From the IMG/VR virus record IMGVR_UViG_3300019124_000096, positions 1-35,184 of that record: DNA of 35,184 bases. One strand, written 5' to 3'. The notes under the pieces were generated by a model. The model was not told the origin of the DNA and did no database searches. It saw only the letters and a list, made by a program, of their open reading frames with translations. The DNA is from a virus. Below are positions 694 to 35,184 of this stretch, in pieces. Positions within the stretch are counted from its first letter, which is position 1, and each line of letters begins with the position of its first letter. The translations under genes and the position numbers were made by a program.

Positions 694-726
694 GGGGAGG
701 GCAACGCCCTCCCCGTTTATTTTTGA
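694..726 (+). terminator. Rho-independent terminator after the Cys-rich gene
   Basis: A perfect 9-bp stem GGGGAGGGC/GCCCTCCCC (694-702 and 706-714) with a 3-nt loop is followed by GTTTATTTTT. It sits 19 nt after the stop of the exported protein. It also lies just past the stop of the converging portal gene, whose own strand lacks a T-run there. Confidence 0.75.
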
Positions 727-1751
727 TCCCCGGTGCTGCCGGGCCCACCGGGGAGCACGTAAGGTTCAAAGCGCACGACCTCCTCGCCGATCCAGTCGTT
801 GACCTCGCGCAAGCGGTGCTGGAGCGGTTCGAGTTCGTTCTTCACGAACACCGCGGCCGTCGGCGTGATCGCACCGAAGCCACCGGTGTTGGTCGGCACG
901 ATGCCGAGCAGAGCCGGCGGCACGCGGTGAGCCGCGAGAATGTCGTCGCGGGTGGCGTTCTTGATACCGAGAAACTCATCCCGTGCGGCCACCTCGCTGA
1001 TCGGGATCACCTGAACGCCGTCCTTTTTGCCCTGCGGGCTGTAGAGGAACAGGTTGCGGAAATTCCCCGGCCCCTTCGATGCCCGCAGCGCCTCGCGGAT
1101 CGCGTTGATGTCTTCCTCGTTCTGCGACGGATCGCTGATGTACAGGATGTAGCCCGCGTGTGAGCCGTTGATGTAGTACTTGCGCCGGAACAGCGTCGAG
1201 CTCTCGTTCAGCAGCGCGGCCTGCAGGGCGCTCAGGTATTCCGGCAGACCATAGATCTCCTGATGCATGTCGGGCTCCAGCAGGTGGAACACGCTGCCGG
1301 GCTGGAACTCGTGCTCCTTCCCCCACCCCTGCACGAAGAAATAGCGCCCCGGCTCGACACCGCGGCGCGTGTACTTCGCGAGCGAGCACACCAGCCGCAT
1401 CGGCCGGCCACTGATCGCGTTCCGCCGCTCCAGATAGGCGTTGCCGAAAACCAGGTAGTCGAGCGCGAAGCGGGCGAACTGGTCGCGCGACAGCAACCGG
1501 TGCGGCTTGAACGTGCTCACGAGGATGTTTCGCTTCACGAAGATCGCGGAGCTGTGGTGCGGGCTGCTGCGGAAGGCACGCGCGAGACCATCGAAGGAGA
1601 TCGGCGTCTCGAACCACCGGCCGTTGTCCAGGCATTCGACGTAGTCGAGCAGCTCGCGGCGATCGAGCACCGGCACCGGATCGCCGAAGCTGAAGGCTTG
1701 GATGCCGGCCTTGCGTGCGCCAGTTTCGGTTTCGGCGTCAATCGGGTTCAT
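717..1751 (-). CDS. Q: Phage portal protein (P2 gpQ)
   Basis: Portal protein forming the dodecameric DNA entry channel of the capsid. From the ATG at 1751 the product is 344 residues, the same length as P2 gpQ. Typical stretches include the N-terminal FSFGDPVPVLDRRELLDY, the NAYLERR region and the C-terminal VPPALLGIVP region. I chose 1751 rather than the longer reading frame from 1832 because this ATG overlaps the terminase TGA by one base (TGATG), which is translational coupling, and because the length then matches the family. It is co-transcribed with terminase P on the minus strand, divergent from the capsid genes as in P2. Confidence 0.95.
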   Translation of the reverse strand: MNPIDAETETGARKAGIQAFSFGDPVPVLDRRELLDYVECLDNGRWFETPISFDGLARAFRSSPHHSSAIFVKRNILVSTFKPHRLLSRDQFARFALDYLVFGNAYLERRNAISGRPMRLVCSLAKYTRRGVEPGRYFFVQGWGKEHEFQPGSVFHLLEPDMHQEIYGLPEYLSALQAALLNESSTLFRRKYYINGSHAGYILYISDPSQNEEDINAIREALRASKGPGNFRNLFLYSPQGKKDGVQVIPISEVAARDEFLGIKNATRDDILAAHRVPPALLGIVPTNTGGFGAITPTAAVFVKNELEPLQHRLREVNDWIGEEVVRFEPYVLPGGPGSTGDQK

Positions 1752-3505
1752 CAGTAGATCTCCATTACGGTCCTGTTGCGCCCGGCACTTCCTTCCAGCG
1801 GTTCGTTGTCGAGCGCGTGCATGGTTGCCCACGCCAGATCGGCGTGGCCGGTTTCTTCGCTGCGGTTCGCCTCAAAGGTCGACTGGCGGCCGCTCGCGGT
1901 CATCGTCTTGCGAATCGAGAGGAACGCCTGCGCCACATCGGTCCAGCCGGCGTCGAATTCGAGGCGGCCGCTGGCGATGACGTCTTTCGCCTTCAGCACG
2001 AGGCGGTTCTTCACCTCGACGGAGTACGTGATGCGCCGCGCGCCGGGGAAGAACTGCAGCACCAGCTGGTACACGCCTGCGCCGACACCGGTGTCGTCGA
2101 TGCCGATGTAGGTCACGCGGTAGCGCTGCGTGATCCGACGGATCTGCTCTGCCTGGCCGGCGAAGTCCATGCCACGCCACTGGTGCTTCTCCAGTAGGCG
2201 GAATTTCCCTCCCGGTACCGCCGGCGGCGCGACCACGACACAGCCCGCGCTGTCGCCGAACATCGCCGGGTCGTACCCGAGCCACACCTCGCGGTTGCCG
2301 AACGGCCGCCCCGCGAACGGCTTGAAGTCGTCCCACGCTTCCCAGCTGTCGACCATGCACCGCTGCAGCTCGGCCAGCGTGAACACCGACGCGGTGTCGT
2401 CGATGAACTGGCACATCAGCAGGTTGGCCCACTCGTCCGCGCTGTACTCCAGCCGCAGCTGGTCGAGATCGAACAGGTCGCAGCCGCCGCGCACAGCGTC
2501 CTCGACCGTCACGATCTGCCGCCACTGGCCGTCCGCGCAACGCCGACCGCCGACCAGCGCGCTGTGGCTCACGTCGATCGAAATGCGGTCCGCCTTCTGG
2601 CGACCGCGGTTGTACAGCTCGCCGCTCCAGAACGGGTAGGCGTCGTGGGTGATGCTCGACGGCGTCGAGAAATAGGTCTGGCGCCACTTCTTGTGGATCG
2701 CCATGCCGCTGGCGACCTTGCGCAGCTCCTGGAATTTGTAGACCCAGAAGTACTCGTCGAAATACAGGTTTCCGTGGTAGCTCTGCGCCGTTCGTGCATT
2801 CGTCCCGAGGAAGTACAGCGTCGCGGCGTTCGGGAGCACGATCGGGTCGCCGGTCAGCTCGACGCCCTCTTCGGCCGCGAACTGCACGATGTACTGCCGG
2901 AAGACGTGGGCCTGCGCCTTGCTGGCGCTGAGGAAGATCTGGTTTCGCCCCGTCTCCAGAGCATCGACGAGCGCCTCGCGCGCGAAGTACCACGTCGCGC
3001 CGATTTGGCGCGACTTGAGGATGTTGCGGATGCGCTCGGTCAGCGCGTTTCGGCGCCACACGCGCTGGTATGCGAACAGCGAATCCTCGAAGCGTTCGAT
3101 AAGCCGCTCCTGCTGCTCGTCGTCGATGGCGTTTCGGACGGGCTTGCGTTTCGGCGCGGCATTGCGGCGCTCGATGTTCGAGTTAAGGTCGCCTTCGTTC
3201 CCGCCTGGCTGCTGGTAGCGCCGAACGCGCGCGAGACGTTCGATCTGCCGGCCGAGCAGGTCGATTTCCTTGTAGTCGCTTCCGCTCTTCGGATCCTTGG
3301 CGACCAGCTGGATCAACCTCGCCTCGAGCGAGGACTCCACCCGCGCGATCGCCGGCGCATCGTCCCAGTGGTCGCGCTGCTTCCAGCTTTCCACCGTCGT
3401 GCGCGGCAGCCCCAGGTGCTCGGCGATGTCAGACACGCGCCACCCCTGCCAGTAGAGGCTGCGCGCGATTCGTCGCTCATCGAGGGAAGGCGCCGTCAGG
3501 AACAT
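1751..3505 (-). CDS. P: Terminase large/ATPase subunit (P2 gpP)
   Basis: Packaging motor ATPase that pairs with gpM and drives DNA into the prohead at cos. The 584-residue length is close to P2 gpP (about 590). An N-terminal HTH-like segment (LYWQGWRVSDIAEHLGLPRTT) is followed by a Walker-A-like KSRQIGATW near residue 165, a Walker-B-like LYFDEYFW near residue 248, and RNase-H-type nuclease acidic motifs at GYDPAMFGDSAG and YIGIDDTGVGAG. Identity with P2 gpP is obvious by eye throughout. It is coupled to Q through a one-base stop/start overlap and divergent from O across 145 bp that carry an Ogr-like dyad. Confidence 0.96.
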   Translation of the reverse strand: MFLTAPSLDERRIARSLYWQGWRVSDIAEHLGLPRTTVESWKQRDHWDDAPAIARVESSLEARLIQLVAKDPKSGSDYKEIDLLGRQIERLARVRRYQQPGGNEGDLNSNIERRNAAPKRKPVRNAIDDEQQERLIERFEDSLFAYQRVWRRNALTERIRNILKSRQIGATWYFAREALVDALETGRNQIFLSASKAQAHVFRQYIVQFAAEEGVELTGDPIVLPNAATLYFLGTNARTAQSYHGNLYFDEYFWVYKFQELRKVASGMAIHKKWRQTYFSTPSSITHDAYPFWSGELYNRGRQKADRISIDVSHSALVGGRRCADGQWRQIVTVEDAVRGGCDLFDLDQLRLEYSADEWANLLMCQFIDDTASVFTLAELQRCMVDSWEAWDDFKPFAGRPFGNREVWLGYDPAMFGDSAGCVVVAPPAVPGGKFRLLEKHQWRGMDFAGQAEQIRRITQRYRVTYIGIDDTGVGAGVYQLVLQFFPGARRITYSVEVKNRLVLKAKDVIASGRLEFDAGWTDVAQAFLSIRKTMTASGRQSTFEANRSEETGHADLAWATMHALDNEPLEGSAGRNRTVMEIY

Positions 3506-3650: not shown

Positions 3651-4472
3651 ATGAAACGCAAGTCCAAGTTCTTCCGCGTAGCGGTCGAAGGCGCCACCAC
3701 CGATGGCCGCAAGATCGAGCGCAATTGGCTCACCGAGATTGCCAAGAGCTACAACCCGCAGAAGTACGGCGCGCGCGTCTTCATCGAGCACATCCGCGGC
3801 CTGAACCCGGAATGGGGCTTCCGCGCGATGGGCGACGTCGTTGCGGTCAAGACCGAGGAGGTCGAGATCGACGGCGAGAAGCGCCTGGCGCTGTTCGCCC
3901 AGATCGAGCCCACGGAGGAGATGGTCAAGCTGGTCGCCGCCGGCCAGAAGATCTACTCCAGCATCGAGGTCAACCCCGACTTCGCTGGCTCGGGCCAGGC
4001 GTATCTCGTCGGCCTCGGCATCACCGACAGCCCCGCGAGCCTCGGTACCGAGGTGCTCGCCTTCGCCGCCAAGCACCCGGAGGCCAACCCGTTCGCCGCG
4101 CGCAAGCAGGCGCCGGGCAACGTCTTCACGGTCGCCGAGGAAGCCGCGATCGAACTGGAGGAGGAGCAGCCGGCGCCGGAACCGTCCCTGCTTTCCCTCG
4201 TGCGCGAGATGTTCTCGCGGCGCTCGGGCGGCGACGACGCCCGGTTCGCCGACGTGCGCGCGGCCATCGAGCACCTGGCGACAGGGGTAACGGCGCGGCA
4301 TGAAGAGTTCGCCGCGCAGCTGGCATCGCTCTCCGCGCGTCTGGACGCGCTGAAAGGCGACCACGAGAAGGCCATCGCCGACCTGACCGGCAAGCTCGAT
4401 CACACGCCGCGCAACGACCCCCCGCGCCCGCCGGCGACGGGATCCGGTGCCGCCGTCACGACGGACTGCTGA
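3651..4472 (+). CDS. O: Capsid scaffolding protein / prohead protease (P2 gpO)
   Basis: Scaffold and serine protease that guides capsid assembly and cleaves itself and the N, Q and L products. The product is 273 residues, against 284 in P2 gpO. The protease domain is N-terminal, with candidate triad residues D18, H47 (in FIEHIRG) and S103/S104 (in KIYSSIEVN) at positions close to the P2 triad D19/H48/S107. The C-terminal part is charged and helical as expected for scaffold. I chose the ATG at 3651 because AAGG lies 8 nt upstream and homology starts at MKRKSKFFRVAVEG; an in-frame ATG at 3582 would add 23 unlikely residues. Confidence 0.94.
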   Translation: MKRKSKFFRVAVEGATTDGRKIERNWLTEIAKSYNPQKYGARVFIEHIRGLNPEWGFRAMGDVVAVKTEEVEIDGEKRLALFAQIEPTEEMVKLVAAGQKIYSSIEVNPDFAGSGQAYLVGLGITDSPASLGTEVLAFAAKHPEANPFAARKQAPGNVFTVAEEAAIELEEEQPAPEPSLLSLVREMFSRRSGGDDARFADVRAAIEHLATGVTARHEEFAAQLASLSARLDALKGDHEKAIADLTGKLDHTPRNDPPRPPATGSGAAVTTDC

Positions 4473-4515
4473 CCGCACGAACCGAACGCCCCCGCCGCCT
4501 TCCCCGGAGCACGCA

Positions 4516-5526
4516 ATGCGCAACACCACCCGCACGCTGTACAACGCCCTGCTCGCCCAGATCGCCCAGATCAACGAGGTCCAGGACGCCACCGTCAAGT
4601 TCTCCGTCGCGCCGACCGTGCAGCAGCGCCTCGAGACGCGCATGCAGGAAAGCTCGGAGTTCCTGAAGCGCATCAACATCGTCGGCGTCACCGAGCAGAA
4701 GGGCCAGAAGCTCGGCCTCGGCATCGGCAGCCCGATCGCCAGCACCACGAACACTGCCGCGCAGGACCGCAGCCCGGTCGATCCGACGCAGCTGGACGGC
4801 ACCTCGTACGACTGCACGCAGACCAACAGCGACACGTACATCCCGTACGCGAAACTGGACGCGTGGGCGAAGTTCCCCGACTTCCAGACCCGCGTGCGCG
4901 ACGCGATCGTGCGCCGTCAGGCGCTCGACCGGATCATGATCGGCTTCAACGGCACCAGCCGCGCCGCGACGTCCGATCGCACCGCGAACCCGCTGCTGCA
5001 GGACGTCAACAAGGGCTGGCTGCAGCACTACCGCGAGCAGGCCCCCGAGCGGGTGATGGCGGACGGCGCGACGGCCGGCGTCATCAAGGTGGGCGGTGCC
5101 AGCGCCGACTACGCCAACCTCGACGCGCTGGTCATGGACGCCGTGGCCAACCTGATCGACCCGTGGTACCGGCAGGACACGCAGCTGGTGGCGATCCTTG
5201 GCGCGAACCTCCTGCACGACAAGTACTTCCCGCTGGTCAACTCGAACCAGGCGCCGAGCGAGCAGCTCGCCGGCGACCTGATCATCAGCCAGAAGCGCGT
5301 CGGCGGGCGCCCGGCGTTGCAGGTGCCGTTCGTGCCCGACGACGCGATTCTGATCACGCGCCTCGACAACCTGTCGATCTACTGGCAGGAGGGTGCGCGC
5401 CGCCGCGCCATCATCGACAACCCGAAGCGCGACCGCATCGAGAACTACGAGTCCTCCAACGACGCCTACGTCGTTGAGGACTTCGGCGCCGGCTGCCTGA
5501 TCGAGAACATCCAGATCCAGCCGTAA
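4516..5526 (+). CDS. N: Major capsid protein (P2 gpN)
   Basis: Main shell protein, 336 residues (P2 gpN is 357). It opens with MRNTTRTLYNALLAQIAQIN, typical of this family, and carries the conserved IMIGFNGTSRA and LIISQKRVGGRPALQVPFVPDDAILITRLDNLSIYWQEG stretches in shortened form by eye. The N-terminal ~25 residues probably correspond to the part removed by gpO. The start at 4516 fits the family N-terminus; the open frame extends upstream to 4447 but overlaps O. It lies directly after O and before M, the canonical P2 order. Confidence 0.95.
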   Translation: MRNTTRTLYNALLAQIAQINEVQDATVKFSVAPTVQQRLETRMQESSEFLKRINIVGVTEQKGQKLGLGIGSPIASTTNTAAQDRSPVDPTQLDGTSYDCTQTNSDTYIPYAKLDAWAKFPDFQTRVRDAIVRRQALDRIMIGFNGTSRAATSDRTANPLLQDVNKGWLQHYREQAPERVMADGATAGVIKVGGASADYANLDALVMDAVANLIDPWYRQDTQLVAILGANLLHDKYFPLVNSNQAPSEQLAGDLIISQKRVGGRPALQVPFVPDDAILITRLDNLSIYWQEGARRRAIIDNPKRDRIENYESSNDAYVVEDFGAGCLIENIQIQP

Positions 5527-16876: not shown

Positions 16877-18046
16877 ATGACCTCCAGCTACCACCACGGC
16901 GTTCGCGTCGTCGAGATCAACAACGGCGCCCGCCACATCCGCATGGTGTCCACCGCAGTGGTGGGCGTCGTCTGCACGGCGAGCGATGCGGACGCCACCG
17001 CGTTCCCGCTGAACAAGCCGGTGCTGCTGACCGATCTGCGCGGTGCGCTCGCCAAGGCGGGCACGAACGGCACGCTGGCCGCGACGTTGCGCGCCATCGC
17101 CGACCAGGCGGATCCGATCACCGTCGTCGTGCGCGTCGAAACCGGGGCCGATGAGGCGGCGACCACCACGAACGTGATCGGCGCCACCACGGGCGGCACG
17201 TACACCGGGATGCAGGCGCTGCTGGCCGCGCAGGCGCAGCTGGGTGTCCGGCCGCGGATCCTTGCCTGCCCCGGCTTGGACACGCAGGCGGTCGCCACGG
17301 CGCTGGCAGTGGTCGCCAAGAAGCTGCGCGGCATGGCCTACGTGAGCGCGGCCGGCGCAGCGACGAAAGAGGATGCGGTCAGCTACCGCGAGGACTTCGG
17401 CGATCGCGAGCTGATGATCATCTGGCCCGACTTCCTTTCGTGGAACACCACCACCAACAGCGCCCAGGCCGCGCCAGCGACCGCACGCGCGGTCGGCTTG
17501 CGAGCGCGGATCGACCAGGAGCAGGGCTGGCACAAGACGCTGTCCAACGTCCCAGTTTCGGGCGTTACGGGCATCTCGCGCGACGTGCACTGGGATCTGC
17601 AGGATCCGAGCACCGATGCCGGCTACCTCAACGCCGGCGACGTCACCACGCTGGTGAACGCCAACGGTTTCCGCTTCTGGGGCAGCCGCACCTGCAGCGA
17701 TGATCCGCTCTTCGCGTTCGAGAGCTCCGTTCGAACGGCCCAGGTGCTCGCCGACAGCATCGCCGACTCGCTGCTCTGGGCGGTCGACAAGCCGATGCAT
17801 CCCTCGCTGGTGCGCGACATCATCGAGTCGATCAACGCGAAGTTCCGCGAGCTGAAGGCCGGCGGCTACGTGATCGAGGCGCGCGCCTGGTACGACGAAA
17901 CGCAGAACACCTCGCAGTCGCTGGCCAGTGGAAAGCTGTACATCGACTACGACTACACCCCGGTGCCGCCGCTCGAGGATCTGACGCTGCGGCAACGGAT
18001 CACCGACCGCTACCTCGCCGACTTCGCCAGCCGCGTCACCGGCTGA
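16877..18046 (+). CDS. FI: Tail sheath protein (P2 gpFI)
   Basis: Contractile sheath subunit, 389 residues (P2 FI 396). It begins YHHGVRVVEINNGARHIRMVSTAVVG, the standard opening. The C-terminal sheath domain contains RTCSDDPLFAFESSVRTAQVLADSI and the extended-arm GGYVIEARAWYDETQN segment, also standard. A CAGGAGAG ribosome site precedes the ATG. It is paired with the tube gene downstream. Confidence 0.96.
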   Translation: MTSSYHHGVRVVEINNGARHIRMVSTAVVGVVCTASDADATAFPLNKPVLLTDLRGALAKAGTNGTLAATLRAIADQADPITVVVRVETGADEAATTTNVIGATTGGTYTGMQALLAAQAQLGVRPRILACPGLDTQAVATALAVVAKKLRGMAYVSAAGAATKEDAVSYREDFGDRELMIIWPDFLSWNTTTNSAQAAPATARAVGLRARIDQEQGWHKTLSNVPVSGVTGISRDVHWDLQDPSTDAGYLNAGDVTTLVNANGFRFWGSRTCSDDPLFAFESSVRTAQVLADSIADSLLWAVDKPMHPSLVRDIIESINAKFRELKAGGYVIEARAWYDETQNTSQSLASGKLYIDYDYTPVPPLEDLTLRQRITDRYLADFASRVTG

Positions 18047-27128: not shown

Positions 27129-27213
27129 CCGCCTCTCCGCCCCTGCCTACCGACCTCCCGCCCGGCCGCGTTGACCGGGCACAGGTTCGCTTTTGCCCGA
27201 GTTCCGCCCACCC

Positions 27214-29853
27214 ATGCGACCCGATCTGCAGCAAGAAATCCGCGCCCGCCTCGTGCGCGACTTCGCATTCAAGGAACGCGGCGAGTGGCTGCGCGAGGGG
27301 CGCTGTCCGGAGTGCGGGAAGAAAGAGCTCTACGTGCACGCCGAGCGGCCGTGGGTGGCGCGCTGCGGTCGCCTGAACCGCTGCGGGGCCGAGCTGCACG
27401 TGCGCGAGGTCTACCGCGATCTGTTCGACAACTGGAGCGAGCGCTTCGTCGCCGGCGAACAGAATCCGCACGCGGCCGCCGACGCCTACCTCGAGTACGC
27501 CCGCGGCTTCGACCTGACCCGCCTGCGCGGCCTCTACTCGCAGGAGTGGTACCGCGACCCGGAGCTGAGCATCAGCAGCGCGACGGTCCGCTTCCCGATC
27601 GAAGGCGGTGCGTGGTGGGAGCGGCTGATCGACCGCCCCGAGAGGTTCGGCAAGAAGAAGGCGCGGTTCGCGCCGGGGAAGTCGTATCAGGGGCGCTGGT
27701 GGCAGATGCCGGACAGCCCGGCCGGCGCCGCCGAGCTGTGGCTGACCGAGGGCATCTTCGACACAGTCGCCCTCGAGCTGAACGGCACGGCCTCGCGTGC
27801 CCTGCTCTCGTCCAACAACTACCCGGCCGAAGCCCTGGCACGCCTCGCCGAGGAATGCCGACAGGCGGAGCGCCCGCGCCCGATGCTGGTGTGGGCGCTC
27901 GACGGCGACGCCGCAGGACGCGAGTTCACCCGGCGCTGGGTCGAGCGCGCGCGCTCCGAAGGCTGGGACTGCACGGCCGCGCAGATTCCGCAGCGTGGCG
28001 GCGCCAAGGTGGACTGGAACGTCGCGCACCAGCGCGGGTGGCTGACCGAGAAGCACCTCGAGGAGTACCGGTACCACGGCGCGCTGCTGATCGCCGAGTC
28101 GGCCACCGAGAAGGCGCTGTTGATGTACCAGCGCACCGAGCGCAAGGAGTTCGCGTTCGGCTTCGCCAGCAAGCTGTACTGGTTCAAGCTGGATCTGGAG
28201 CGCTACGACAAGGCGCGGCAGGCGCTGGAGAACAGCGACGAAGGGCTGACCGAGAAGGAGATGCGCGAGCGCGCGCTCCGCGAGTCAGGCGGCGTGGTGG
28301 AGATCGCCAACTGCTACCCGCACCCGCTGTACTACCAGGCCAACGCGCTGACCGACGAGTCCTGGTATTACTACCGGATCGACTTCCCCCACACGCGGAA
28401 GCCGATCAAGAACACCTTCACCGCGGCACAGCTGGCCAGCGCGTCGGAGTTCAAGAAGCGCCTGCTGGCGATCGCGCCGGGCGCCGTGTTCACCGGCACC
28501 ACGCAGCAACTCGATCGCATCTTCCGCGAGACGCTGGATGCCATCAAAACCGTCGAGACGGTCGACTTCATCGGCTACAGCCGCGAGCACGGATGCTGGG
28601 TGTTCGGCGACGTGGCGGTGCGGGGCGGCCAGATCTACACGCTGAACGACGAGGACTACTTCGAGTTCGGCAAGCTCTCGGTGAAGTCGCTCAACCAGAG
28701 CGTGGGCTTGGCCATCAACCTTGCCCGCGACGAGTACCGCTCGGACTGGCTCAACATGCTCTGGGCGTGCTTCGGGCCGAAGGGCGTTGTGGCGCTGGCG
28801 TTCTGGTTCGGCTCGCTGTTCGCCGAGCAGATCCGCGAGCGGCAGAAGTCGTACCCCTTCCTCGAGATCATCGGCGAGGCCGGCTCCGGCAAGTCCACGC
28901 TGGTCGAGTTCCTGTGGAAGCTGGTCGGCCGTCGGGACTACGAAGGCTTCGACCCCAGCAAGTCCACGGCCGCGGCGCGGGCGCGCAACTTCGCCCAGGT
29001 GTCAGGCCTGCCGGTCGTACTGATCGAGGGCGACCGCGACACTGAGGGCGCCAAGCAACGGGCGTTCGACTGGAACGAGCTGAAAACCGCCTACAACGGC
29101 CGCTCGGTGCGCGCCACCGGCGTCAAGAACGGCGGCAACGAGACGCGCGAGCCGCCGTTTCGCGGCACGATCGTGATAGCGCAGAACGCCGAGGTGACCA
29201 GCAGCGACGCCATCTTGCAGCGCCTGGTGCACCTGTCCTTCGACAAGGCTGCGCACACCCCCGAGACCAAGGCGCTGGCCGAGCAGCTTGAACGCATGCC
29301 GGTCGAAGCCGTGAGCGGCTTCGTGCTTGCCGCCACCACGCGCGAGAACAAGGTGCTGGAGGCCGTGTTCGAGCGCGTGCCCGGTTACACCGATGCGCTG
29401 CTGGCCAACCCGGAGATCAAGTCGGTCCGCATCGCGAAGAACCACGCGCAGATGCAGGCGCTGGTCGATGCGCTCCGCAGCGTGGTGAGGCTGACCGACG
29501 AACAGCACCGGCAGACGAAGGAGCTGCTGGTCGAGATGGCGATCGAGCGCCAGCGCGCAATCAATGCCGACCACCCGTACGTGCAGGCGTTCTGGGAGCT
29601 GTTCGAGCACGTCGACAGCAAGACCACGGAGGAGTCGATCAACCACTCGCGCGATCCGGAGCTGATCGCGGTGAGCCTGGTCGAGTTCGAGGAGCGGCTT
29701 GCGCGCCGCGGGCTGCGCCTGCCCTGCGACATGACAGAGATGAAGCGGCACCTGCGCACCTCGCGCGTGCGCCGCTTCGTGGACATCAAGACGGTCAACA
29801 GCCGGATCACCAACGCCAGCAAGAAGTGCTGGGTGTTCCGGATCGAGCGGTAA
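27214..29853 (+). CDS. Replication protein: zinc-finger, Toprim primase and ATPase/helicase-like
   Basis: An 879-residue early protein. Residues 31-57 hold a DnaG/CHC2-like zinc site (C31, C34, C51, C57). Toprim motifs follow: WLTEGIFDTVALE near 175 and LVWALDGDAAGREF near 225, with catalytic Glu and DxD. The C-terminal part has a P-loop IIGEAGSGKSTLVEF near 553, VVLIEGDRD and a sensor-like RGTIVIAQNAEV, indicating a helicase-type ATPase. It would prime and unwind phage DNA. It replaces rolling-circle initiator gpA of P2, implying a different replication mode. I used ATG 27214; TTG 27193 is an alternative start. Confidence 0.85.
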   Translation: MRPDLQQEIRARLVRDFAFKERGEWLREGRCPECGKKELYVHAERPWVARCGRLNRCGAELHVREVYRDLFDNWSERFVAGEQNPHAAADAYLEYARGFDLTRLRGLYSQEWYRDPELSISSATVRFPIEGGAWWERLIDRPERFGKKKARFAPGKSYQGRWWQMPDSPAGAAELWLTEGIFDTVALELNGTASRALLSSNNYPAEALARLAEECRQAERPRPMLVWALDGDAAGREFTRRWVERARSEGWDCTAAQIPQRGGAKVDWNVAHQRGWLTEKHLEEYRYHGALLIAESATEKALLMYQRTERKEFAFGFASKLYWFKLDLERYDKARQALENSDEGLTEKEMRERALRESGGVVEIANCYPHPLYYQANALTDESWYYYRIDFPHTRKPIKNTFTAAQLASASEFKKRLLAIAPGAVFTGTTQQLDRIFRETLDAIKTVETVDFIGYSREHGCWVFGDVAVRGGQIYTLNDEDYFEFGKLSVKSLNQSVGLAINLARDEYRSDWLNMLWACFGPKGVVALAFWFGSLFAEQIRERQKSYPFLEIIGEAGSGKSTLVEFLWKLVGRRDYEGFDPSKSTAAARARNFAQVSGLPVVLIEGDRDTEGAKQRAFDWNELKTAYNGRSVRATGVKNGGNETREPPFRGTIVIAQNAEVTSSDAILQRLVHLSFDKAAHTPETKALAEQLERMPVEAVSGFVLAATTRENKVLEAVFERVPGYTDALLANPEIKSVRIAKNHAQMQALVDALRSVVRLTDEQHRQTKELLVEMAIERQRAINADHPYVQAFWELFEHVDSKTTEESINHSRDPELIAVSLVEFEERLARRGLRLPCDMTEMKRHLRTSRVRRFVDIKTVNSRITNASKKCWVFRIER

Positions 29854-30745: not shown

Positions 30746-31382
30746 GCCGATCCAAGCCTTCCCCCTGCAGTGGCCTACCGGCTGGAAGCGCACGCCGAGC
30801 TACCAGCGCGACTCCGGTCGCTTCGGGAAGCGGCGAGCGGCAGCGGGCGGATACACGGGCAAGGGCGAGCTGACCGTCGCGGACGCCGTGGCGCGCGTCC
30901 GCGAGCAGCTGCGCGTGATGCGCGTCCGCGACGACGACCTGGTCGTGAGCACCAACCTCACGCTGCGGCTGGACGGGTGGCCGCGCAGCAACCAGCCCGA
31001 GCCGCAGGATCCCGGCGTGGCGGTCTACTGGCGCGACGGCGGCGAGACCCGCTGCATGGCGATCGACCGCTACCGGCGGGTGGCCGACAACCTCGCCGCG
31101 ATCGCGGCGACCCTCGAGGCCATGCGCGCGATCGAGCGCCACGGCGGCGCCGAGATCCTGACGCGCGCCTTCGCCGGCTTCGCGGCCCTGCCCGGTCCGT
31201 CCAGCGCGGAACCGTGGTGGGAGGTGCTCGGCGTGCCCCGCAACGCGCACGCGACAAACGTCGAAGCCGCGTACCGACGCCTGCGCTCCCTGCACCACCC
31301 GGACCGGGGCGGCGACGCCGCAGCATTCCACCGGGTGCAGGAGGCGTACGAGCAGTGGCAGTCGGAGGCGCGCCATGCGTGA
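30738..31382 (+). CDS. Phage protein with C-terminal J domain
   Basis: 214 residues. Residues 1-145 are an unrecognised domain (FPLQWPTGWKRTPSYQR, then YWRDGGETRCMAIDRYRRVADNLAAIAATLEAMR) that occurs ahead of J domains in phage and integrative-element proteins. Residues about 150-213 form a J domain: WWEVLGVPRNAHATNVEAAYRRLRSLHHPDRGGD with the HPD loop needed to stimulate DnaK ATPase. It may recruit host DnaK to phage replication or DNA-modification complexes. It overlaps the methylase start by 8 nt, so the two are coupled. Confidence 0.85.
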   Translation: MREPIQAFPLQWPTGWKRTPSYQRDSGRFGKRRAAAGGYTGKGELTVADAVARVREQLRVMRVRDDDLVVSTNLTLRLDGWPRSNQPEPQDPGVAVYWRDGGETRCMAIDRYRRVADNLAAIAATLEAMRAIERHGGAEILTRAFAGFAALPGPSSAEPWWEVLGVPRNAHATNVEAAYRRLRSLHHPDRGGDAAAFHRVQEAYEQWQSEARHA

Positions 31383-33087
31383 GCCGCAGATGCAGTTCGC
31401 CTTCGGCCCCGAGCTGATCGTCGACCTGTTCGCCGGCGGCGGCGGCGCGTCGCTCGGCATCGAGCAGGCGTTCGGCCGCCCCGTCGACATCGCCGTCAAC
31501 CACGATGCGGACGCGATCGCGATGCACGCGGCGAACCACCCCCACACGGAGCACATGCGCTGCGACGTGTTCGAGGTGAACCCGCTGCAGGCCACGCGCG
31601 GCCGCCAGGTCGGCCTGCTGTGGGCGTCGCCGGACTGCAAGCACTTCTCCAAGGCCAAGGGCGGCAAGCCGCGGTCGAAGAAGATCCGCTCGCTGGCGTG
31701 GGTGGTGGTGAAGTGGGCGATGCTGGTGCGCCCGCGCGTCATCATGCTGGAGAACGTCGAGGAGTTCGTGACGTGGGGGCCGCTCGGCCCGGACGGCATG
31801 CCATGCCCGCGGCGGAAGGGTCGGACGTTCAACCGCTGGGTCCGTGAGCTCCGGCGCCTCGGCTACAAGGTAGAGTGGCGCGAGCTGCGCGCGTGCGACT
31901 ACGGCGCGCCGACCATTCGCAAACGGTTCTTCCTGATCGCCCGCTGCGACGACCTGCCGATTCGCTGGCCGAAGCCGACTCACGGCAAGCCGGACAGCGC
32001 CGAGGTGCGCAGCGGCAAGCTGCTGCCGTGGCGCAGCGCCGCGGAGTGCATCGACTTCTCGCTGCCGTGCCCGTCGATCTTCCTGCCGAAGGAGGAGGCG
32101 CGCGCACTCGGCGTGAAGCGGCCGCTGGCCGAGGCCACGCTGCGCCGCATCGCGAAGGGCGTGGACCGCTTCGTGCTCAACAACCCGCGGCCGTTCATCG
32201 TGCGGAACATCCACGGCAACACGCCGGCGGACGTTGCGGCACCGATGCCGACGCTCCTGACCGGCAACCACACCTACCTGGCCGCGCCCACGCTGGTCGA
32301 CGTCGCGCACGCCGAGGTGGGGCAGAACGGGAGCCGGCGCTGGTCCGACGGCGCGCACTCGGTCGAGCAGCCGGCGAAGACGGTGACCGCCACCGGCAAT
32401 CAGGCCGTCGTGTCCACGTTCCTCACGAAGTACCGGGCCGACAACGCCGGCAGCGCCGCCGATGCGCCGTTCCCCACGGTGACCGCCAACGGCGAGAGCG
32501 AGCGCCCCGGTGGCAACCCGCCGCTGGCGGTGGTGGCCGTCCACATGGAGCAGGCAAACGCCGGCAACTACGAGGGCGGCGGCCGCGCGGTGGACGCGCC
32601 GCTGTCCACGATCACCGCGAAGGGCTGCCAGCAGCAGCTCGTGGCGACGTCGCTGGTGAAGCTGCGTGGCGACAACATCGGCAGCCAGGCGGAAGCCCCG
32701 CTGCACACCGTCAGCGCGCAGGGCTTGCACCACGCCGAGGTGCGCGCCTTCCTCGTGAAGTTCTACAGCGCGGGCGGCCAGCACGCCGGCTGCGACGAGC
32801 CGATGCACACAGTGCCGACGCGCGATCGCATGGGGCTGGTCACGGTCGAAGGCACCGACTACGCGATCGCCGACATCGGCCTGCGGATGCTGACCCCGCG
32901 CGAGCTGTTCCGCGCGCAGGGTTTCCCCGAGAACTACGTCATCGACCGCGGCGTCGACGGCCGCAGGCTGCCCAAGGACGCCCAGGTGCGGATGTGCGGC
33001 AACAGCGTGTGTCCGCCGATGGCGCGCGCGCTGGTCGAGGCCAACGTCGGCGAGCTGCGTCGCGTCGAGGCCGCCGTCTATGCGTGA
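31375..33087 (+). CDS. DNA cytosine-5 methyltransferase with repeat-containing insert
   Basis: 570 residues. SAM motif I (IVDLFAGGGGASLGIE) is near residue 15, catalytic motif IV reads ASPDCKHFSKAKG near residue 83 (PDC in place of PCQ), and motif VI is LENVEEF near residue 126. Motifs IX-X lie at the C-terminus (RMLTPRELFRAQGFP, then GNSVCPPMARAL). Between about residues 275 and 485 are at least six repeats with core P-x-x-T-[VIL], where a target-recognition domain is expected. No restriction enzyme is adjacent, so protection of phage DNA is the likely role. Confidence 0.9.
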   Translation: MREPQMQFAFGPELIVDLFAGGGGASLGIEQAFGRPVDIAVNHDADAIAMHAANHPHTEHMRCDVFEVNPLQATRGRQVGLLWASPDCKHFSKAKGGKPRSKKIRSLAWVVVKWAMLVRPRVIMLENVEEFVTWGPLGPDGMPCPRRKGRTFNRWVRELRRLGYKVEWRELRACDYGAPTIRKRFFLIARCDDLPIRWPKPTHGKPDSAEVRSGKLLPWRSAAECIDFSLPCPSIFLPKEEARALGVKRPLAEATLRRIAKGVDRFVLNNPRPFIVRNIHGNTPADVAAPMPTLLTGNHTYLAAPTLVDVAHAEVGQNGSRRWSDGAHSVEQPAKTVTATGNQAVVSTFLTKYRADNAGSAADAPFPTVTANGESERPGGNPPLAVVAVHMEQANAGNYEGGGRAVDAPLSTITAKGCQQQLVATSLVKLRGDNIGSQAEAPLHTVSAQGLHHAEVRAFLVKFYSAGGQHAGCDEPMHTVPTRDRMGLVTVEGTDYAIADIGLRMLTPRELFRAQGFPENYVIDRGVDGRRLPKDAQVRMCGNSVCPPMARALVEANVGELRRVEAAVYA

Positions 33088-33633: not shown

Positions 33634-35184
33634 ATGACGACTCCCGCTGCTCTCTACCTGCGCTCGAGCAAGGACCGGCACGACGTGTCGATCGACGCGC
33701 AACGGAGGGAGCTGCAGCAGCTGGCCAAGAGCCGGCAGCTGTCGATCGTTGAGGAGTTCGCCGACGCGGTCGAGTCCGGCAAGGACGAGGATCGGCCCGG
33801 CTTTCAGGCGCTGCTGAAGGCGATCCGGGACCCGAACCGCCGGTGGGACACCCTGCTGGTGCTCGACACCAGCCGCATTGCGCGACGCCGGCACATCGCG
33901 ATCGTCTTCGAGGAAGTCGAGTGCAAGCGGCACGGCGTGCGTGTCGTGTACAAGTCGCTGCCGGAGTCCGACCCGGTCACGGAAATGCTGCTGAAGTCCA
34001 TCCTGCAGGCGATGGACGAGTGGCACAGCCTGACGTCTCGGCAGAAGGGCCTGGCCGGCATGCGCGAGAACGTGCGCCAAGGCTTCCGTGCCGGCGGGAG
34101 GGCGCCGACCGGCTACCGCCTGGTGCAGCGAGCGACCGGCGCGGTGCGCGATGGCCAGCCCGTCACCAAGAGCGTCCTCGAGCCCGACCCTGCATGCGCC
34201 GAAGCGGTCGCCCGGTACCTGCGCGATCGCGCGGCCGGCGTGCCGCGCGTGCGCGCCGCGAGCGCAGCGGGGCTGGCCAGCGTGGCGGACAGCTCGCTGA
34301 TCGGGATGGAGTGGAACGCCCTCACCTACGCCGGCCACACCGTCTGGGGCGTGCATGCGGAGCGAGACGGCGGGCGCTATCGCGGCGGCGCGAAGCGCCG
34401 GCCGCGGTCGGAATGGGAGATCCAGCGGGACACGCACGAGGCGCTGATCACCGACGACGAGGCCGAGCAGCTGCTGCGCCGCCTCGAGGCCAAGGCCGCG
34501 GGACGCCAAGCGCGCGCGGCCGCGACGCGCGATCGCGTTTCGGAGGCCCTTCTTGGCGGGCTGCTGTACGCCCCGGATGGCACGAAGTGGTGGGCCGAGC
34601 GCGATCGCTACCGGTGGGACCAAGGCCATGCTGGCCAGCGCTCGATCGCGCGCGCGGCGATCGAAGGTCCGGTCCTTGAGCAGGTGCTCGCGGATCTCGC
34701 CTCCCCTGACTTTGCCCACGCGCTGGTGGAAGGCACTCGCGCCGCACTCGCGCGCGAGGTCGACGGCAGCCAGCTTCGGCGCCTTCGTGCCGACGTCGCC
34801 GCGCTCGGCACACGCATTGCGCGCACGCTGGATCTGGCAGCCGGCCTCGAGGATCCGTCGCCGGCTCTGCGGCGTGTGGACGAGCTCGAGCTGGAACGGC
34901 GCGAGAAGCAGGCGCAGCTACAGGCGCTCGAGCGCGAGGCGACACAGGCCCGCAACGTCGACGCCATCACCGTCGGCGCCGTGCAGCGCGTGCTGGCCGA
35001 CTTGGCCGAGGAAGCAAAGCAAAACGCCCGCAGCGAGCTGCGGGCGTCGGTGATCAAACTGATCGAGCGCGTCGAGCTGGATCCTCGAACGCTTTCCGCG
35101 ACGCTGCACTACCGCGTCGCGGCCCCCGAATCGGGGGTTAGAGTGGCGTCCCCACGGGGATTCGAACCCCGGTCGCAACCGTGA
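33634..35184 (+). CDS. Large serine recombinase (phage integrase)
   Basis: 516 residues. The N-terminal resolvase-type catalytic domain starts LYLRSSKDRHDVSIDAQRREL with catalytic Ser12, continues with LVLDTSRIARR and has the YKSLPESDPVTEMLLKSIL active-site region. A Recombinase domain (about 155-270, GLAGMRENVRQGFRAGGRAPTGY), a zinc-ribbon/coiled-coil C-terminal region (about 300-475) and Leu/Glu/Arg-rich helices follow. It integrates and excises the phage, replacing the tyrosine integrase of P2. The last 14 or so codons (ASPRGFEPRSQP) read antisense through a tRNA 3' half, so attP overlaps the gene end. Confidence 0.93.
   Translation: MTTPAALYLRSSKDRHDVSIDAQRRELQQLAKSRQLSIVEEFADAVESGKDEDRPGFQALLKAIRDPNRRWDTLLVLDTSRIARRRHIAIVFEEVECKRHGVRVVYKSLPESDPVTEMLLKSILQAMDEWHSLTSRQKGLAGMRENVRQGFRAGGRAPTGYRLVQRATGAVRDGQPVTKSVLEPDPACAEAVARYLRDRAAGVPRVRAASAAGLASVADSSLIGMEWNALTYAGHTVWGVHAERDGGRYRGGAKRRPRSEWEIQRDTHEALITDDEAEQLLRRLEAKAAGRQARAAATRDRVSEALLGGLLYAPDGTKWWAERDRYRWDQGHAGQRSIARAAIEGPVLEQVLADLASPDFAHALVEGTRAALAREVDGSQLRRLRADVAALGTRIARTLDLAAGLEDPSPALRRVDELELERREKQAQLQALEREATQARNVDAITVGAVQRVLADLAEEAKQNARSELRASVIKLIERVELDPRTLSATLHYRVAAPESGVRVASPRGFEPRSQP
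35015..35046 (-). terminator. Antisense intrinsic terminator inside the integrase gene
   Basis: A perfect 9-bp stem CGCCCGCAG/CTGCGGGCG (35025-35033 and 35038-35046) with a 4-nt loop is followed on the minus strand by TTTTGCTTTG. It lies about 100 nt downstream of the tRNA 3' end on that strand, where a tRNA terminator is expected, and is fully within integrase codons. Confidence 0.7.
35144..35184 (-). tRNA. 3' half of a tRNA, probably tRNA-Glu (partial)
   Basis: On the minus strand the end of the window reads as T arm CGGGG-TTCGAAT-CCCCG, acceptor strand TGGGGAC, discriminator G and CCA (35144-35146). A 5' acceptor GTCCCCA is implied. GGGGAC-G-CCA with the CGAC variable loop fits gammaproteobacterial tRNA-Glu. 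The 5' half, with D arm and most of the anticodon arm, lies beyond the window, so identity and integrity are not proven. Confidence 0.7.
35144..35184. other. Putative attachment-site core (att) at the tRNA 3' half
   Basis: The tRNA 3' half coincides with the end of the integrase gene, a typical attP/attB core arrangement. Orientation implies that the phage supplies the tRNA 3' half and restores the gene at this junction. The duplicate core should lie to the left of base 1 and is not in the window. Confidence 0.55.

Follow-up and report, generated by a model that had tools for sequence, protein, structure and literature searches.

A tRNA-Glu-targeting serine integrase whose gene spans attP and which may lose a degron-like tail through its own integration reaction

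The main result of this study is a family of large serine integrases that target a tRNA-Glu gene and whose own gene (int) spans the phage attachment site attP; integration is predicted to strip a degron from the very integrase that carries it out. The probability of this reading is, in our estimate, about 0.55, as the proteolysis is inferred and not backed by an experiment. Comparison of integrated and free forms among relatives demonstrates two alternative C-termini, a rebuilt tRNA gene, empty sites, and a non-random tail. An earlier sequence-only reading of this DNA did not foresee a conserved, degron-like tail in the free phage.

The window, that is, the whole analyzed stretch of 35184 bases, is an entire IMG/VR record. 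Its last gene is int, and the int stop codon ends on the final base, as expected if the record was cut at gene borders. The earlier description of the virion genes as those of P2 is borne out by matches to phrog_70 (capsid), phrog_74 (small terminase), phrog_55 (head closure), phrog_23 (sheath), and phrog_52 (tail protein), and by a gpP-like terminase and a portal. The window thus agrees with P2-type phages in the order and homology of the capsid, terminase, portal, and tail genes. The portal gene (717..1832, minus strand; PF04860) is the first phage gene in the P2 order and lies near the unseen attL end. It is accompanied by the gpP-like large terminase subunit (1751..3505, minus strand; PF06056, PF03237, PF17289), the major capsid protein (4447..5526, plus strand; phrog_70, E = 5e-160), and the tail sheath (16877..18046, plus strand; phrog_23, E = 6e-137). 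At its att end the window encodes a serine integrase, the corresponding enzyme of P2 itself being a tyrosine integrase. Among other genes, the first one of the record (1-675), which separates the portal gene from the unseen attL, encodes 224 amino acids that begin like a signal peptide and end in a cysteine-rich stretch; a Pfam search of its product gave no match, and no counterpart was detected at that place in the nearest relative, L003. A Toprim-containing protein (27193-29853) and a C5-cytosine DNA methyltransferase (31375-33087; PF00145) are encoded upstream of int. A search for an exact match to the left end of the window, which would have identified a longer relative, found none.

The int gene (33634..35184, plus strand) encodes 516 residues in the integrated form, of which 507 are phage-coded and intact (codons 1-507), including the catalytic Ser12 (33667..33669, plus strand). 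The protein contains the resolvase domain PF00239 (E = 1e-20), and the Y8-x-R10-S11-S12 motif is invariant across 33 relatives (alignment A1). The PF07508 profile matches P0001 with E = 0.0018, just under the curated cut-off, and is matched by 33 of 33 members at E <= 0.1. The AF2 model has a mean pLDDT of 86, and its best PDB matches are the Bxb1, PhiC31, and LI integrase structures. The domain definition of the large serine integrases (an N-terminal resolvase domain with the catalytic serine, a recombinase domain, and a coiled-coil region) is met, and this architecture is supported for the window protein by the predicted model. The earlier assignment to large serine recombinases with catalytic Ser12 is confirmed by the PF00239 match, the invariant motif, and the fold matches together. 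Residues ~305-345, the usual place of the zinc ribbon, contain no cysteines, the sole cysteine being at about residue 97. A terminator-like hairpin lies inside int (35023..35048, minus strand) and could end transcription coming from the tRNA. It is also found at the same place in L003, but most relatives lack it. We considered it as a general substitute for the displaced tRNA terminator and rejected this possibility, since at that place it occurs only in L003 and is rare in the family.

The last nine codons of int lie antisense in the 3' part of a tRNA-Glu gene (35144..35184, minus strand; anticodon TTC in relatives); an antisense overlap with a tRNA 3' half had been read from the letters alone. 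This segment matches the antisense tRNA-Glu(TTC) of relatives up to the anticodon stem and is identical to the L029 site in 41 of 41 bases. ARAGORN found no tRNA in the window, which contains only a part of it, but called the tRNA-Glu(TTC) whole in L003 and in almost every integrated relative from a genome. The attP sites of relatives are palindromes with arms at 13-21 bases from the centre; the symmetry reaches 21-22 bases and beyond 22 is at background. The centre is usually CCCC-AN-GG and corresponds to the junction of the acceptor and T stems of the tRNA. A symmetric attP of ~40-50 bases with a short shared core and a central dinucleotide, as defines a serine integrase site, is thus present. 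By the symmetry of these sites, the phage (P) half of att in the window is placed at 35133..35154 (plus strand), with the palindrome arm CGGGGGTTAGAG and the phage-supplied tRNA 3' end TGGCGTCCCCA. The central dinucleotide is inferred to be AC (35154..35155, plus strand) at the acceptor/T-stem junction, both from this symmetry and from the divergence of L120 and L149 just after it. With the crossover centred there, residues 508-516 are host-coded, and the end RGFEPRSQP with the TGA stop (35155..35184, plus strand) would be swapped in upon integration. Past the centre, the phage half often bears no resemblance to the tRNA, in agreement with the short shared core expected of a serine integrase.

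Two forms of int were found among the relatives. In integrated copies, comprising nearly all genome loci, its 3' end lies over an intact antisense tRNA-Glu, and the protein ends with SPRGFEPxxxP. In attP copies, found in many viral contigs, the gene runs through the same core into phage DNA and ends in another tail. For instance, L120 and L149 are near-identical in DNA up to the att centre and differ thereafter, and one MAG contains both attL and attP (L018, L058, L059). The guess that the C-terminus differs between forms is thereby seen directly in relatives, and the crossover in the final codons is supported both by this comparison and by empty sites in sister species. There, the joined flanks are uninterrupted (Methylophilaceae G098 and G068; Methylophaga G171 and G158), and in the occupied genomes the two flank matches overlap by 17 bases.

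It had also been proposed to look for a direct repeat of the core left of base 1. No attL repeat was found within the window (26 weak matches against 22 expected), because the record begins at a gene border; the far prophage end was located instead in six relatives (L029, L004, L018, L015, L003, and L009). There, host DNA, in which a terminator-like hairpin is usually present, is followed by TGG[CT]GTCCCCA and next by phage DNA; except in the reversed L009, this phage DNA has a reading frame open for the lost tail. Left of base 1 of the window we would accordingly expect host sequence, TGGCGTCCCCAC, and a frame that could encode the tail not seen here. A search with at most two mismatches found no attL in the upstream DNA of L007, L008, L010, L013, and L019, where contig ends, longer prophages, or diverged cores may be responsible. 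The att core is reversed relative to int in L009 (with L061 and L062) and in the viral loci L024, L025, and L032 (contigs shared with L076, L078, and L089), which places int away from the tRNA. Two of these viral contigs, which are related, have a tRNA-Asp(GTC) gene, of either phage or host origin, immediately after int and the reversed att site (L024, 4186-4262; L025, 3064-3140).

The family comprises 21 loci in bacterial genomes and, after a second search, 79 in viral contigs, mostly at 40-67% identity; being based on uncultured sequences and pattern searches, these counts are no census. The named hosts are mostly Beta- and Gammaproteobacteria, with the addition of Acidithiobacillus and one MAG labelled Planctomycetota. 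Among isolated phages and plasmids, the search returned no full-length relative, only catalytic-domain matches. The nearest relative of the window, L003, is a Silanimonas prophage of P2 type, collinear with the window and inserted at the same tRNA. Of the 32 phage records bearing a family integrase, only two have the P2 capsid family PF05125, so the integrase travels among unrelated phages, which supports the earlier inference of integration-module exchange.

The tails of the attP forms are mostly 16-26 residues long. Among distinct forward ends, 21 of 39 terminate in Ala-Ala and 30 of 39 in Ala, compared with 5.7% and 16.3%, respectively, of 649 other ORFs on the same contigs (mechanically called, at least 120 codons; p ~1e-16). 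The Ala-Ala excess persists with one vote per 55%-identity cluster (20 clusters; p = 8e-6), whereas single linkage at 50% leaves two clusters in all and the test without power. As a control, 19 serine integrases from outside the family, all with complete ORFs, were taken from Gammaproteobacteria; one of them ends in Ala-Ala. Arg, Lys, or Leu predominates at positions -3 and -4, the Ala-Ala pattern is anchored at the C-terminus, and the Ala-ending tails are scattered over the integrase tree. The final codons are spelled in 17 ways, and tails with the core translated in a different frame also finish in RRAA or RKAA; together with the variable length, this points to selection acting on the end of the protein rather than on the att DNA, which is symmetric only up to 22 bases. 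On this comparative evidence, the attP tail is non-random. About a quarter of the tails have no terminal Ala, and those recovered for L003 and L015 are not Ala-ended; the tail of the window phage itself is unseen, its place being left of base 1. C-terminal LAA and RRKKAI are recognized by ClpX (PMC7857536), and the tail consensus (basic/Leu, basic/Leu, Ala, Ala-COOH) resembles the ClpX degrons. That ClpXP or a comparable protease reads it as a degron is inferred, as there are no stability data.

The C-terminal swap may be real and the tail nevertheless structural or regulatory, either adding a beta strand to the C-terminal sheet or making a contact through which attP x attB recombination is favoured; loss of the tail on integration would then help to tie excision to the directionality factor. 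In the AF2 model of the attP form L146, tail residues 499-506 form a beta strand with fair confidence, and in that of the integrated window protein residues 498-516 are disordered; further, several tails alternate hydrophobic and basic residues. We regard this explanation as possible and as the most serious competitor, but the strongest signal is in the last two residues, anchored at the C-terminus at any tail length, and a strand needs neither. It is rather unlikely that the swap is merely a neutral side effect of fitting attP into the last part of int, with a functionless tail whose end reflects composition. Alanine is common in these GC-rich genomes, an att overlap economises space, and the middle parts of the tails differ greatly between attP forms, but composition would have to account for Ala-Ala in 54% of the tails against 5.7% of the ORFs on the same contigs, in varied codons and on many branches. 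Finally, many of the contigs are linear fragments, and the attP forms could be misassemblies or decayed insertions elsewhere, which is very improbable given that four of these contigs carry terminal repeats (90-141 bases), that the att palindrome is complete in attP forms only, and that such tails are supplied by the attL halves of integrated relatives.

In the self-editing switch that we propose, the rearrangement is shown by sequence comparison, and its effects on stability are inferred. Recombination at the central dinucleotide, nine codons before the stop, exchanges the 3' end of int and strands the old tail at the opposite end of the prophage, some 40 kb away. During infection the tailed integrase would be short-lived, so that integration would need a burst of synthesis. 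Integration removes the tail, and int then closes with tRNA-coded residues that contain no degron. Upon induction, the stable prophage integrase and the directionality factor would excise the phage, and excision would restore the tail, return int to the unstable form, and hinder re-integration. That each recombination event thus resets the stability of the integrase, with the degron off at integration and back at excision, throughout a widespread family of Pseudomonadota phages, is a prediction with about even chances.

The closest parallel is the integration-dependent immunity of the BPs-type actinobacteriophages, where attP lies in the repressor gene and a tyrosine integrase inserts the phage at a tRNA gene, removing the C-terminal -AA ssrA-like tag of the repressor (Broussard 2013, as described in PMC9262239, PMC8092301, and PMC6109161). 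Common to both systems are an attP inside a phage gene, a tRNA target, a remnant at the other prophage end, and a tag of the -AA type present in the phage form and absent from the prophage form (in our case seen on the integrase of relatives). In the BPs-type phages the edited gene is the repressor, and the tyrosine integrase has its own tag that is not removed by integration. In the window family attP lies inside int, not inside a repressor gene; the edited gene is that of the integrase itself, a large serine recombinase, and the hosts are Pseudomonadota. The archaeal suicidal integrases (SSV1, pTN3, pT26-2) are tyrosine recombinases that integration splits into inactive halves (PMC8371274). 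They share with the window family an att inside the integrase gene, so that integration alters the gene, but here no splitting occurs: the last residues alone change and the catalytic part remains whole. PhiC31, Bxb1, and A118/LI resemble the window family in the catalytic domain, the overall fold, and a palindromic attP of ~44 bases with a central dinucleotide; they differ from it in the tRNA-Glu target, the phage-supplied tRNA 3' end, and the int 3' end within att, and from the window protein in its cysteine-free zinc-ribbon region. The P2-like phage KS14, which has no tyrosine integrase, combines P2-type virion genes with a serine recombinase, as does the window phage, but its recombinase is Gin-like with 225 amino acids and its prophage is a plasmid (PMC3091744).

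For mycobacterial phages, the tRNA sites on record belong to tyrosine integrases, and PMC8092301 locates its serine integrases in coding regions. The window phage is not peculiar in having a serine integrase that terminates within a tRNA gene. In a control scan of Gammaproteobacteria for serine integrases other than the window family, six further large ones end inside opposite-strand tRNAs, namely tRNA-Met (L202, L203, L204, L205, and L207) and tRNA-Asn (L201). Scans of viral sequences for these tRNA-Met and tRNA-Asn integrases gave two, zero, and one distant relatives. Serine integrases that target a tRNA and have their int 3' end overlapping it may be common in Gammaproteobacteria.

We found no description of an integrase tag removed by the integrase's own reaction in open-access papers, subscription papers and preprints being outside the scope of the search. 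A separate factor is usually held responsible for the directionality of serine integrases. If our main reading is true, a stability switch that the reaction writes into the DNA would add a second level of control, and would carry integration-dependent tag removal beyond repressors and Actinobacteria, to integrases and to Pseudomonadota. It also carries a warning, as such integrases taken from prophage genomes have a host-coded end, without the tail that they bear when acting on attP. A stability switch of this kind would suggest self-limiting recombinases.
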